NCBI RefSeq assembly: GCF_008274655.1
Contig: NZ_VTRV01000007.1
Location: 1 to 37,485, forward strand
DNA: 37,485 nucleotides
Direction of reading: 5' to 3'
Source of the DNA: Cognatilysobacter lacus
GTDB taxonomy: Bacteria; Pseudomonadota; Gammaproteobacteria; Xanthomonadales; Xanthomonadaceae
Shown: one piece after another, positions 28,151-31,717 of the stretch
How the letters are laid out: each line of letters starts with the position of its first letter
Position numbering within the stretch: position 1 is the stretch's first letter
Made by a program: the position numbers and the translations under genes
Notes under the pieces: model-generated
Databases searched by the model: none
Told to the model about the DNA's origin: nothing
The model's input: only the letters and a program-made list of their open reading frames with translations

Positions 28151-28231
28151 GCATTGCAGAGTGTGACGCCTGCACGTCGCGGCTCACATGCAGTTGATGG
28201 TGCGCGCCGCACGATCGCCGGACCGTCTTCA

Positions 28232-28237
28232 GATAAT
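28232..28237 (+). promoter_or_regulatory. Possible -10 box giving a leaderless transcript
   Basis: GATAAT stands out in this GC-rich sequence and lies 6 bp before GTG 28244. If it is a -10 box, transcription would begin at or beside the start codon. No convincing -35 box was seen. Confidence 0.3.
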
Positions 28238-28243
28238 TCAACC

Positions 28244-29353
28244 GTGCCGAGCCTTGGACGACCCCGCGCCGAACGGGGCTTGCCCTGGATAGCGTCCTCG
28301 TCAAAGGACAGCGAAATCCACCGTCTTCGCGGGCTCGTGTCCGCGCTGGCGGCGATCGCCGAGCATCCGGGAACCGCGCAGTCTTTCATCGAGTACGCGC
28401 TCGACCGGGTGGTCGAGGTCACGCGTGCCACCGGTGGCGTCGTGCTGCTCGATGGATCGGAGGTCGGCATGGACGTCGCGGTCGCGCACGGCCAGATGAC
28501 GCTTCCCGGCGTCGACGTCTTCAACGGCGGGCAGACGCTTGCGCGGGCCTGCATGGAAGCCGGGACCTGCATGCGAAGCGACGCCACTGCCAACGACGAA
28601 CGCATCCACGGCGACGCGCGCCGGGTGCATGCGCTGCACTCGCTGATCGCCGCGCCCCTGCGCTATGGCGAATCGGTGCTGGGCGTGCTCGAGGTCTGCT
28701 CGTCCGTCAGCCATGCCTTCGACGACATCGACGCGCAGGCGATCGGACTCATCGGCGATGCGATGGGCGGCGCGCTCGGCCGCCAGCTCGCGCTCGAGGA
28801 GAACGCGCGCCTGCTGCGGCGCCTTCATGACGCGCTGCTGGACACGCAGGCGACCGCGCAGATGTACCAGGACGCCGCGTCCCTCGATGCGCTCACCGGC
28901 CTTCCCAATCGACCCGCGTTCGAGACGCAGCTCGAGGCGGTGTGCGCAGCGCACGAAGGCCAGCCCCATCGTTTCGGCCTGCTGTTCATCGACCTTGACG
29001 ATTTCAAGGACATCAACGACACGCACGGCCACGCCATGGGCGACCAGGTGTTGCGCGCCACCGGCGCGGCGCTGCGCGAGACTCTGCGCGATACCGACGT
29101 GGTGGCGCGCCTCGGCGGCGACGAGTTCGTGGTGCTGCTGTCGTCCTTGCGCGACGCGGATCGCGACGTGCGGTCGGTGGCCGCGGCCGTGGAGGACGAG
29201 CTGGCGCGGCCGCGCGTCGTGAACGGCGTGCGCCTGCGCATCAAGTGCAGCGTGGGCTGGGTGATCCACGACGGCTTCGCGCATGCGAGCGAGGTCCTGC
29301 AGGCCGCGGACGCCCGCATGTACGAGCAGAAGCGCGAGCGCCGCCGACGCTGA
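28244..29353 (+). CDS. GAF-GGDEF diguanylate cyclase
   Basis: 369 aa, soluble. GAF domain (about 45-185) followed by a complete GGDEF domain: SLDALTGLPNRPAF (213-226), FIDLDDFKDINDTHGH, GGDEF at 291-295 and inhibitory RxxD (R282, D285) five residues before it. It should make c-di-GMP from two GTP with product inhibition. The GAF ligand is unknown. The start is uncertain: GTG 28244 is chosen because a -10-like box sits just upstream; the open frame extends to TTG 28154. It follows the SRAP gene by 93 bp. Compare the degenerate homologue at 21912. Confidence 0.9.
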   Translation: MPSLGRPRAERGLPWIASSSKDSEIHRLRGLVSALAAIAEHPGTAQSFIEYALDRVVEVTRATGGVVLLDGSEVGMDVAVAHGQMTLPGVDVFNGGQTLARACMEAGTCMRSDATANDERIHGDARRVHALHSLIAAPLRYGESVLGVLEVCSSVSHAFDDIDAQAIGLIGDAMGGALGRQLALEENARLLRRLHDALLDTQATAQMYQDAASLDALTGLPNRPAFETQLEAVCAAHEGQPHRFGLLFIDLDDFKDINDTHGHAMGDQVLRATGAALRETLRDTDVVARLGGDEFVVLLSSLRDADRDVRSVAAAVEDELARPRVVNGVRLRIKCSVGWVIHDGFAHASEVLQAADARMYEQKRERRRR

Positions 29354-30135: not shown

Positions 30136-30354
30136 TCAGCCGTGTGCGTAGCGCCCCACCGGCGTACGTTCGATGTGGATCGCGTCGCGACCGGCGGGTG
30201 AAAGGCAGCGATCCCAGGCGCTGTGCAGCAGCCCCTTGGCGTAGAGGTCGTCTTCGAGCTGCTTGTCGATCTTCGCGCGTGCGTCGATCGCCAAAAGGCG
30301 AAGCGCACTTATTTCGCGGTGGCTGAGGTCCGTCTGCTGCGTCGAGCTGGTCAT
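30136..30354 (-). CDS. Small protein of unknown function
   Basis: 72 aa. The ATG at 30354 has GAGGGAC about 8 nt upstream. The sequence is mostly helical with heptad-like hydrophobics (EISALRLLAIDARAKIDKQL) and polar ends. No family recognised. A possible membrane-free helical peptide-size protein; the good ribosome site and normal composition support coding. Its stop faces the lipoprotein gene. Confidence 0.55.
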   Translation of the reverse strand: MTSSTQQTDLSHREISALRLLAIDARAKIDKQLEDDLYAKGLLHSAWDRCLSPAGRDAIHIERTPVGRYAHG

Positions 30355-30490: not shown

Positions 30491-31336
30491 TCAGTCGCCG
30501 ACGACGAGGATGAACGGGCCGAGCTGGGACGTCATGGTCACGAGTACGTGCAGTTCGCTGTCGAGGCCCGAGAGCGGCGTTTCGAAGTCGGGCGGAGATG
30601 CGGTGTAGTTCGCGTCCTCGGCCAGGCTGTCCTTCACCACGTAACCCATCAGCATGTTCACGAGCTCGCCAAGCGCGTCACGGGCGAGTTCTTCGTCGCA
30701 GGCCTCCGGCGGGATCGACAGGAAGGCCTGCGCCATCGCATGCATGGTGGCGCCATCGCAGGCCATTCCGATCACCAACGGGCGGTCGGCGGCGACACGC
30801 ACCAGCGCGGCTGCGTCGACATGCGGTGGCGCCAGCGGATCGATGACGCTCGAAAACTGGCACTGCGTGCGCAGGAGCCGCGGGAAAAGCTTGTTGCAGG
30901 TGGCGATCGCGTTGCCCACGCGGCGGCCGAACTGGTGCGTGGCGACGATGGCGTCGAGTGAGCGCGCGGCTTCATCGCGATCCGCCGAATGCAGCCGCAG
31001 CTCGTCGTCGAGCCGATGGCGTTCGACGTACCCTTGCTCGACCAGGATCTCCCCGAACAGCTTGCGGCGCGATTTCTGTTCGTCGAGCAGCTGGCCGACC
31101 TCGTCGGCCGTGAGCAGCCCCATCGATTGCGCGATGTCGCCGAAGCGTTTGTCCTCGCGACGCTGGCGCTCGTTGATGGCCTGCGCCTGGTGCGCGGTGA
31201 GCATGCCCCTCCCGCACGCGATTTCGCCCAGCGCGGGGTTGGACATGCGCTGGATCTCGAGCGCCCGCAGCAGCTGCGGCGCGTCGATGACGCCTTTTTC
31301 CAGCAGGAACTGCCCGAAGAACTTGGCTGCTGCCAT
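30491..31336 (-). CDS. CheX-like phosphatase with four N-terminal MshEN-like repeats
   Basis: 281 aa, soluble. The N-terminal 120 residues hold four repeats of exactly 29 residues (starting at 7, 36, 65 and 94), each with FG/LG, a second Gly (15, 44, 73, 102) and an ending Gln (29, 58, 87; His116 in the last). That is the spacing of MshEN c-di-GMP-binding motifs (24 plus 5 residues). The C-terminal part (about 125-281) is CheX/CheC-like: D220-x3-E224-x2-N227-x3-G231 matches the phosphatase signature. So it may dephosphorylate a receiver domain. The start is ATG 31336 with AAGGA overlapping the cheY stop, 12 bp apart; the two form a tight unit. Confidence 0.9.
   Translation of the reverse strand: MAAAKFFGQFLLEKGVIDAPQLLRALEIQRMSNPALGEIACGRGMLTAHQAQAINERQRREDKRFGDIAQSMGLLTADEVGQLLDEQKSRRKLFGEILVEQGYVERHRLDDELRLHSADRDEAARSLDAIVATHQFGRRVGNAIATCNKLFPRLLRTQCQFSSVIDPLAPPHVDAAALVRVAADRPLVIGMACDGATMHAMAQAFLSIPPEACDEELARDALGELVNMLMGYVVKDSLAEDANYTASPPDFETPLSGLDSELHVLVTMTSQLGPFILVVGD
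30971..31318 (-). repeat. Four tandem 29-residue MshEN-like repeats within the CheX-like gene
   Basis: Encodes residues 7-122. Repeat starts fall at residues 7, 36, 65 and 94 without any gap. Positions in common: an aromatic or Leu then Gly at repeat positions 1-2, Gly at 9, and Gln at 23 (His in repeat 4). Only repeat 3 keeps the Arg of the RLG motif (R64). The period equals one 24-residue motif plus the 5-residue linker of MshEN domains, so the array reads as two MshEN modules. Confidence 0.75.
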
Positions 31337-31348
31337 GGTCGCGCGTCC

Positions 31349-31717
31349 TTATGCGGTGACTTCGCCGAGCACGCGCTCGAGCGTGTCGCGGTCGATCGGC
31401 TTTTGCAGGTAGCTCTTCGCGCCGATCTTCAGGCACTGCTCGATGTCGTTCTGCGCGCCGAGCGAGCTGAGCACCACGACTTTCGCGTCCGGGTCGAGTT
31501 CGAGAATGCGCTTGAGCGCGGCCTTGCCGTCGACCTTCGGCATCACGAGGTCAAGCAGCACGACATTGGGCTTGAGCGCGAGGTACTGCTCCACGGCCCG
31601 GACGCCGTTATCGGCTTCCCCGGCCAGTTCATAGCCGCAGGCCGCAAGTTGCTGCGCGGTGAGCATGCGCAGCGCGCGCGAATCGTCGCAGAGAAGTACG
31701 GTCGGGCGGACGCTCAT
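31349..31717 (-). CDS. CheY-like response regulator
   Basis: 122 aa, a receiver domain alone. D11 and D12, phospho-acceptor D56 (LLDLVMPKVDG), the switch Ser84 and K106 (QKP) are intact. It lacks an output domain and should signal by protein contact. The start is ATG 31717 with AAGGAAGAG upstream. It is the first gene of the pair with the CheX-like phosphatase 12 bp downstream, which is the likely partner. The kinase is not in this unit. Confidence 0.94.
   Translation of the reverse strand: MSVRPTVLLCDDSRALRMLTAQQLAACGYELAGEADNGVRAVEQYLALKPNVVLLDLVMPKVDGKAALKRILELDPDAKVVVLSSLGAQNDIEQCLKIGAKSYLQKPIDRDTLERVLGEVTA

Follow-up and report, generated by a model that had tools for sequence, protein, structure and literature searches.

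A CheY-linked CheX-type protein with four MshEN-like repeats in Cognatilysobacter lacus and its relatives

The DNA analysed here (the window, a 37,485-nt contig of Cognatilysobacter lacus) encodes a receiver-only CheY and, directly downstream, a protein in which an array of four MshEN-like repeats precedes a CheX domain (mshEN-cheX). The pair is probably a two-gene, flagellum-linked CheY/CheX module whose MshEN array has kept a half-site and been repurposed, and would serve in docking or in the binding of a non-classical ligand; a probability of about 0.6 is assigned to this reading. The CheX domain carries the conserved phosphatase signature, cheY adjoins mshEN-cheX in nearly all carriers, and the adjacent cheY, flagellin and the catalytic asparagine are missing together in one clade.

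Both genes are on the minus strand (Table 1), and mshEN-cheX starts 12 bp past the stop codon of cheY. The coordinates and spacing given in an earlier note on this DNA are confirmed. A single copy of mshEN-cheX is present in the genome, an assembly of 301 contigs with 92% completeness. On the plus strand, at 28154-29353, a GAF-GGDEF protein is encoded at a distance of 1.1 kb from mshEN-cheX; this gene adjoins the pair in four of the five loci of the genus. Outside the genus nine loci were examined, and matches to it occur in L119 only, with 55% and 39% identity and within about 3 kb to either side. Any link of the pair to this neighbour is weak. The whole neighbourhood of the window is kept in none of these nine loci (in L121 two of its genes are kept, 6-8 kb away), so that the cheY/mshEN-cheX pair is the stable unit. 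Past the end of mshEN-cheX, and on its strand, lies a 72-aa open frame with no clear family (30136-30354).

Table 1. Features of the cheY/mshEN-cheX pair in the window, with the evidence or the conservation among family homologues
Feature	Position	Strand	Evidence or conservation
cheY, receiver-only response regulator, 122 aa	31349..31717	-	Pfam Response_reg 85.8 bits
mshEN4-cheX, repeat array and CheX domain, 281 aa	30491..31336	-	Pfam, NCBIfam, homologue alignment, AlphaFold2
repeat 1, residues 6-34	31235..31321	-	F6 (Arg position) 44/45, G8 45/45, L22 45/45, Q29 45/45
repeat 2, residues 35-63	31148..31234	-	A51 44/45, N55 38/45, R57/Q58/R59 45/45
MshEN_N-like four-helix bundle, residues 33-90 (repeats 2 and 3)	31067..31240	-	VIA match to 5htl
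repeat 3, residues 64-92	31061..31147	-	best-kept MshEN half-motif: R64 44/45, G66 45/45, V80, L84, Q87 45/45
repeat 4, residues 93-121	30974..31060	-	L93 (Arg position) 38/45, H116 (Gln position) 41/45
CheX domain, residues 134-281	30494..30937	-	VIA matches to 3hm4, 3hzh
predicted catalytic E224 and N227	30656..30667	-	E 44/44, N 41/44 readable

Among 297 genomes of the Lysobacteraceae, 48 have a match to mshEN-cheX; three weak matches (E ~1e-4; G100, G195, G233) were set aside, leaving 45 carriers. Four loci (L002-L005) were left out as copies of genomes already counted, and G291, a 57%-complete genome in which both frames are broken, was left out of the tree and of the CheX counts. Among named species, Lysobacter segetis and L. 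terrigena are the closest relatives found. In a sample of 369 genomes of the class, searched at E 1e-6, 35 have a match: two belong to the family, five are full-length relatives outside it (G588, G489, G398, G514, G613), from three other gammaproteobacterial families, and in 28 the match stops short of the CheX signature. CheY matches adjoin in all five outside-family loci, with the frames read in three of them (L037, L038, L040). In a sample of 329 genomes of the phylum, searched at E 1e-12, no other complete member was found. Each of these searches scored a few best candidates per genome, so that misses are possible; in the class and phylum searches, with six or seven candidates at most, absences are weak. 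A separate 287-aa frame (L068:1177-2040) matches the array in its first part and has no Pfam match and, by eye, no CheX signature; no CheY match was found in that locus.

The CheY of the window reaches roughly 110-123 bits with a first group of solved CheY chains, which includes 1tmy, and roughly 53-56 bits with a second, lower-scoring group that includes 1ab5 and 3f7n; we take the former to be the Thermotoga, archaeal and Bacillus type and the latter the E. coli type. Residues D11/D12, D56, S84, Y103 and K106 are invariant in the 12 CheY sequences aligned, out of 45 loci. D11/D12 presumably form the acidic pocket and D56 is presumably the phospho-acceptor; the acidic pocket, the phospho-Asp, the Thr/Ser and the Lys expected of a CheY are all present in these 12 sequences.

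The second part of mshEN-cheX has the CheX fold, as is seen from the Pfam CheX match of residues 177-250 (33.7 bits, gathering score 27) and from the VIA superpositions on the CheX structure 3hm4 (Z 17.1, 2.7 Å, 146 residues) and on the CheX chain of the CheX-CheY complex 3hzh (Z 15.8, 2.9 Å, 143 residues). The signature D220-x3-E224-x2-N227-x3-G231, noted earlier at residues 220-231, is present in the window protein, and its E and N are conserved among the family homologues (Table 1); the E-x2-N part is kept in all 14 rows of alignment A3, in which three other families are represented by a row each. Enzymes of the CheC/CheX/FliY group insert an asparagine and an acidic residue into the receiver (PMC3035606), and a corresponding phosphatase activity on the adjacent CheY is predicted for this domain. 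The known CheX phosphatases (PF13690) of Thermotoga, Borrelia, Desulfovibrio and Vibrio share with it the fold (Z 15-17), the E-x2-N motif and the CheY partner, but the solved CheX chains are about 150-160 residues long, lack a repeat array and are only 9-17% identical. Published accounts of CheX include a secondary mutation of the V. cholerae CheX VC0377 in a motility suppressor (PMC8789113) and the association of cheX with the F3 chemosensory class in Campylobacterota (PMC9321776).

CheY lies directly upstream of mshEN-cheX in 42 of the 45 carriers (30/30 distinct loci and 12/15 in a second set; the 42 include G291 with its broken frames), and these are the family carriers with flagellin, all 42 of which have adjoining CheY DNA. 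Flagellin is found in 42/45 carriers vs 116/252 non-carriers (Fisher p 6e-10, uncorrected for relatedness). Three carriers, G238, G261 and G281, have no flagellin match. In the 3.7-3.8 kb examined at their loci CheY was not found, and mshEN-cheX directly follows a DUF445 gene, whereas cheY separates these two genes in ten sister genomes. FliM was not found in these three genomes, and likewise not in the incomplete assembly of the window itself despite its flagellin; G026, of the same genus, has FliM. In the proteins of the three genomes N227 is replaced by Ser and Asp214 is changed, while the array residues persist; Asn is present in all 41 other readable proteins. The three genomes form a single clade (99/96), so that the loss of flagellin, cheY and the asparagine is to be counted as one event. 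This joint loss supports the view that CheX serves this CheY and that CheY serves the flagellum, which is the simplest reading of the comparison: the CheX activity would exist for the adjacent CheY, and that CheY for the flagellum. Together with the 42/42 adjacency it makes the CheY/CheX/flagellum link, and with it the functional link between the CheX-type protein and its neighbour anticipated earlier, well supported by genome comparison. Since 40 of the 45 carriers have a CheZ as well, this CheX need not be the main phosphatase.

The array consists of four 29-residue repeats that start at residues 7, 36, 65 and 94 and span residues 7-122. The periodicity proposed in the earlier note is borne out, since 29 is the top-scoring offset between 15 and 59 on residues 4-122 and none of 5,000 shuffles reaches its score. 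The relationship to MshEN is supported by the NCBIfam model for the c-di-GMP motif (NF053729), which matches the array in three stretches with 76 bits against a cut-off of 38, and by a profile of 24 homologues, which matches the solved chains of PilF (E 3.6e-9) and MshE (2.6e-5), and CheX weakly (0.023). Conservation is high and specific for each repeat: the first motif Gly is present in 45/45 homologues in all four repeats and the motif Gln in 45/45 in each of repeats 1-3; in repeat 4 this position is His in 41 homologues and Gln in the other 4. The arginine of the RLG motif is found in the window protein in repeat 3 only, as had been cautioned; of the 45 homologues, 44 have it in repeat 3 and 2 have it in repeat 4. 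The guanine pocket of repeat 2 has A51 and N55 where MshEN has LxxxL, followed by the invariant R57-Q58-R59; residue 55 is Gln or His where it is not Asn. In the rows that represent three other families, the first of these pocket sites is Ala or Val and the second is Asn. In other array loci, 36 of 37 rows carry hydrophobic residues at both equivalent sites; in this comparison some rows overlap or share a genus, rows were dropped if their key sites had more than four gaps, and rows were taken irrespective of a CheX domain.

In the AlphaFold2 model of the 281-aa protein (mean pLDDT 93.6, pTM 0.77), repeats 2 and 3 form a four-helix bundle of the MshEN_N type. It superimposes on c-di-GMP-bound MshE (5htl) with Z 11.6 and 1.3 Å over 58 residues, and in a model of the array only with Z 11.5 and the same deviation and length; helical bundles may reach such VIA scores by chance, but here the match is in line with the sequence profile. 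The good alignments with MshE, PilF-B and PilB all fall on residues ~33-90 in both models. In this register the second guanine pocket is kept (R64, G66, V80, L84 and Q87, with L36) and the first is not. It is possible that repeats 1+2 and 3+4 form MshEN bundles as well, as the structure aligners give the best placement only and the sequence profiles place their matches on residues 7-58, 64-112 and 62-115. When compared with MshEN/GSPII of V. cholerae MshE and T. thermophilus PilF-B, the period of 29 residues and the bundle (1.3-1.5 Å) are the same, whereas there are four repeats instead of two, CheX instead of MshEN_C follows, and the central bundle keeps only one of the two guanine pockets. 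An extended first helix, as in the non-binding GSPII-A domain of PilF, is seen at residues 2-13 of the full model, but in the array-only model this helix starts at residue 7, and the feature was dropped as evidence. Residues 35-90 also match the C-termini of fumarases and aspartases (Z ~8; fumarase-type rows follow 5htl at ~8.3 for the array-only model), and residues 50-85 have a weak Pfam match, below the cut-off, to the fumarase C C-terminal domain (window 31067-31234); a distant relation between MshEN and this domain is possible.

The relaxed 24-residue c-di-GMP motif was applied as printed in PMC5013675, where a receptor has two adjacent motifs 29 residues apart. No adjacent pair of repeats in the 45 homologues matches it. 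Repeat 3 is the sole repeat that passes, in 30 of the 45 proteins; the window protein is not among them, because Q70 breaks its repeat 3 motif. In other array loci an adjacent pair is present in 6 of 30 motif-bearing frames. Arrays are also seen outside mshEN-cheX: L064:1435-1887 and L065:1441-1872 are frames of 125-164 aa that are mostly a four-repeat MshEN-type array, lying by eye beside an apparent hybrid kinase and an apparent receiver gene, respectively, and more such matches, several of which cross in-frame stops, occur in L062, L063, L066, L067, L069, L074 and L076. Arrays of this type are possibly stand-alone adaptors.

The earlier note proposed that c-di-GMP binding to the array controls dephosphorylation of the adjacent CheY, a link it did not know as described. 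The association itself had been named: in one phrase of the main text, Wang et al. (2016) list CheX among the domains associated with MshEN, the same combination as in the window protein, as a possible c-di-GMP target (PMC5013675), and no further paper on the fusion was found in the open-licence literature, supplements aside. Of the proposal, the MshEN relation, the CheX fold and the link to CheY are supported; judged by the published motif, the nucleotide part has a lower probability than a half-site put to another use. The NF053729 score, the 1.3 Å match to c-di-GMP-bound MshE, the invariance of four first Gly and three of four Gln, the well-kept half-motif of repeat 3 and the 39 GGDEF matches in the genome all fit a c-di-GMP switch of CheX activity. 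This switch is nevertheless doubtful, in view of the missing motif pair in 45 proteins, the Ala/Asn pocket of repeat 2 and the single repeat with Arg in the window protein; several changes of key residues are reported to accompany loss of binding in XpsE and to contribute to it in PilF GSPII-A. In MshE, the reported cost of changing Arg9, Asp12 or Gln32 is at most about five-fold, and that of changing a conserved hydrophobic residue is more than ten-fold (PMC5013675); this mild cost of the polar changes, with the NF053729 score well above its cut-off, means that weaker c-di-GMP binding is possible. A more specific version is speculative and rather doubtful: the repeat-3 pocket would take one guanine of c-di-GMP, or another guanine nucleotide, and a partner chain or the Ala/Asn-Arg pocket of repeat 2 would complete the site, switching CheX and setting the lifetime of CheY~P for a second, Thermotoga-like CheY at the flagellum. 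The one kept pocket, with the other replaced by the conserved polar N55, R57 and R59, would also suit another guanine nucleotide, or c-di-GMP shared by the protomers of a dimer with one pocket per chain, a reading that appears unlikely.

A service of the module to the Pil-Chp twitching system in place of the flagellum is quite unlikely. All three CheW matches found in G238 belong to a single cluster that encodes a PilJ-type receptor, a kinase frame of 2312 aa (Hpt, HATPase, CheW, receiver) and two CheW proteins, genes that we take to be those named PilI, ChpA and ChpC; the cluster is a Pil-Chp system, and no flagellar chemotaxis kinase is thus seen in this genome, which keeps mshEN-cheX with Pil-Chp seemingly its only chemosensory system. 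Three CheW matches are likewise present in each of G261 and G281. However, these genomes lack the catalytic Asn as well as a cheY beside mshEN-cheX, and CheW-domain matches occur in 296 of the 297 family genomes, mshEN-cheX in 45 only. That the array is a decaying relic is very improbable: motif residues have been lost relative to MshE, but many repeat-specific residues are invariant in 45/45 and kept in three other families, on which ground a relic was rejected, and the array has a dN lower than its dS, the clade without flagellin included, by a counting method that is too rough to show differing constraint on the array and CheX. Since mshEN-cheX still seems to be under constraint in that clade, the array and its non-catalytic CheX could serve a second function there.

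A docking or altered-ligand role is accordingly graded above that of a classical c-di-GMP receptor as the more likely one: with one of its two guanine pockets replaced, the array is probably no longer a classical two-pocket receptor, and the earlier caution that it may be a protein-interaction module was apt. The docking reading rests on elimination and analogy. The GSPII-A domain of PilF has an MshEN-type fold, is reported not to bind c-di-GMP and is proposed to be a landing pad (PMC12002112); like the ND0 domain of X. citri PilB, it has a degenerate motif on an MshEN fold, but both are parts of pilus ATPases and not of CheX proteins. The closest docking analogue, X. citri PilB with PilZ, weighs against docking, as this PilB, which is without the binding residues, is reported to bind PilZ mainly via its other subdomain (PMC8389850). 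In the repurposed half-site module, a chemotaxis kinase would phosphorylate CheY, and CheY~P would act on the flagellar switch. The CheX domain would then place E224 and N227 in the CheY pocket and cause dephosphorylation, a mechanism of the family that the joint loss supports here. The central bundle has kept one guanine pocket and has a conserved polar site in place of the other, and most likely the array would position or regulate CheX by binding either another protein or a ligand of a non-classical kind.

The pair is a compact, conserved place where an architecture of the second-messenger type meets CheY dephosphorylation in soil bacteria of the Lysobacter group, and the clade that has kept the array and has no flagellin, no adjacent CheY and no catalytic Asn is a natural experiment that points to the partners. 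If the speculative version with a completed repeat-3 site is true, one protein would directly link a second messenger to the termination of a chemotactic signal. More generally, an array that senses a nucleotide would place the termination of chemotaxis signals under the control of a second messenger; an array that docks a protein would show how a nucleotide receptor has been turned into an adaptor.
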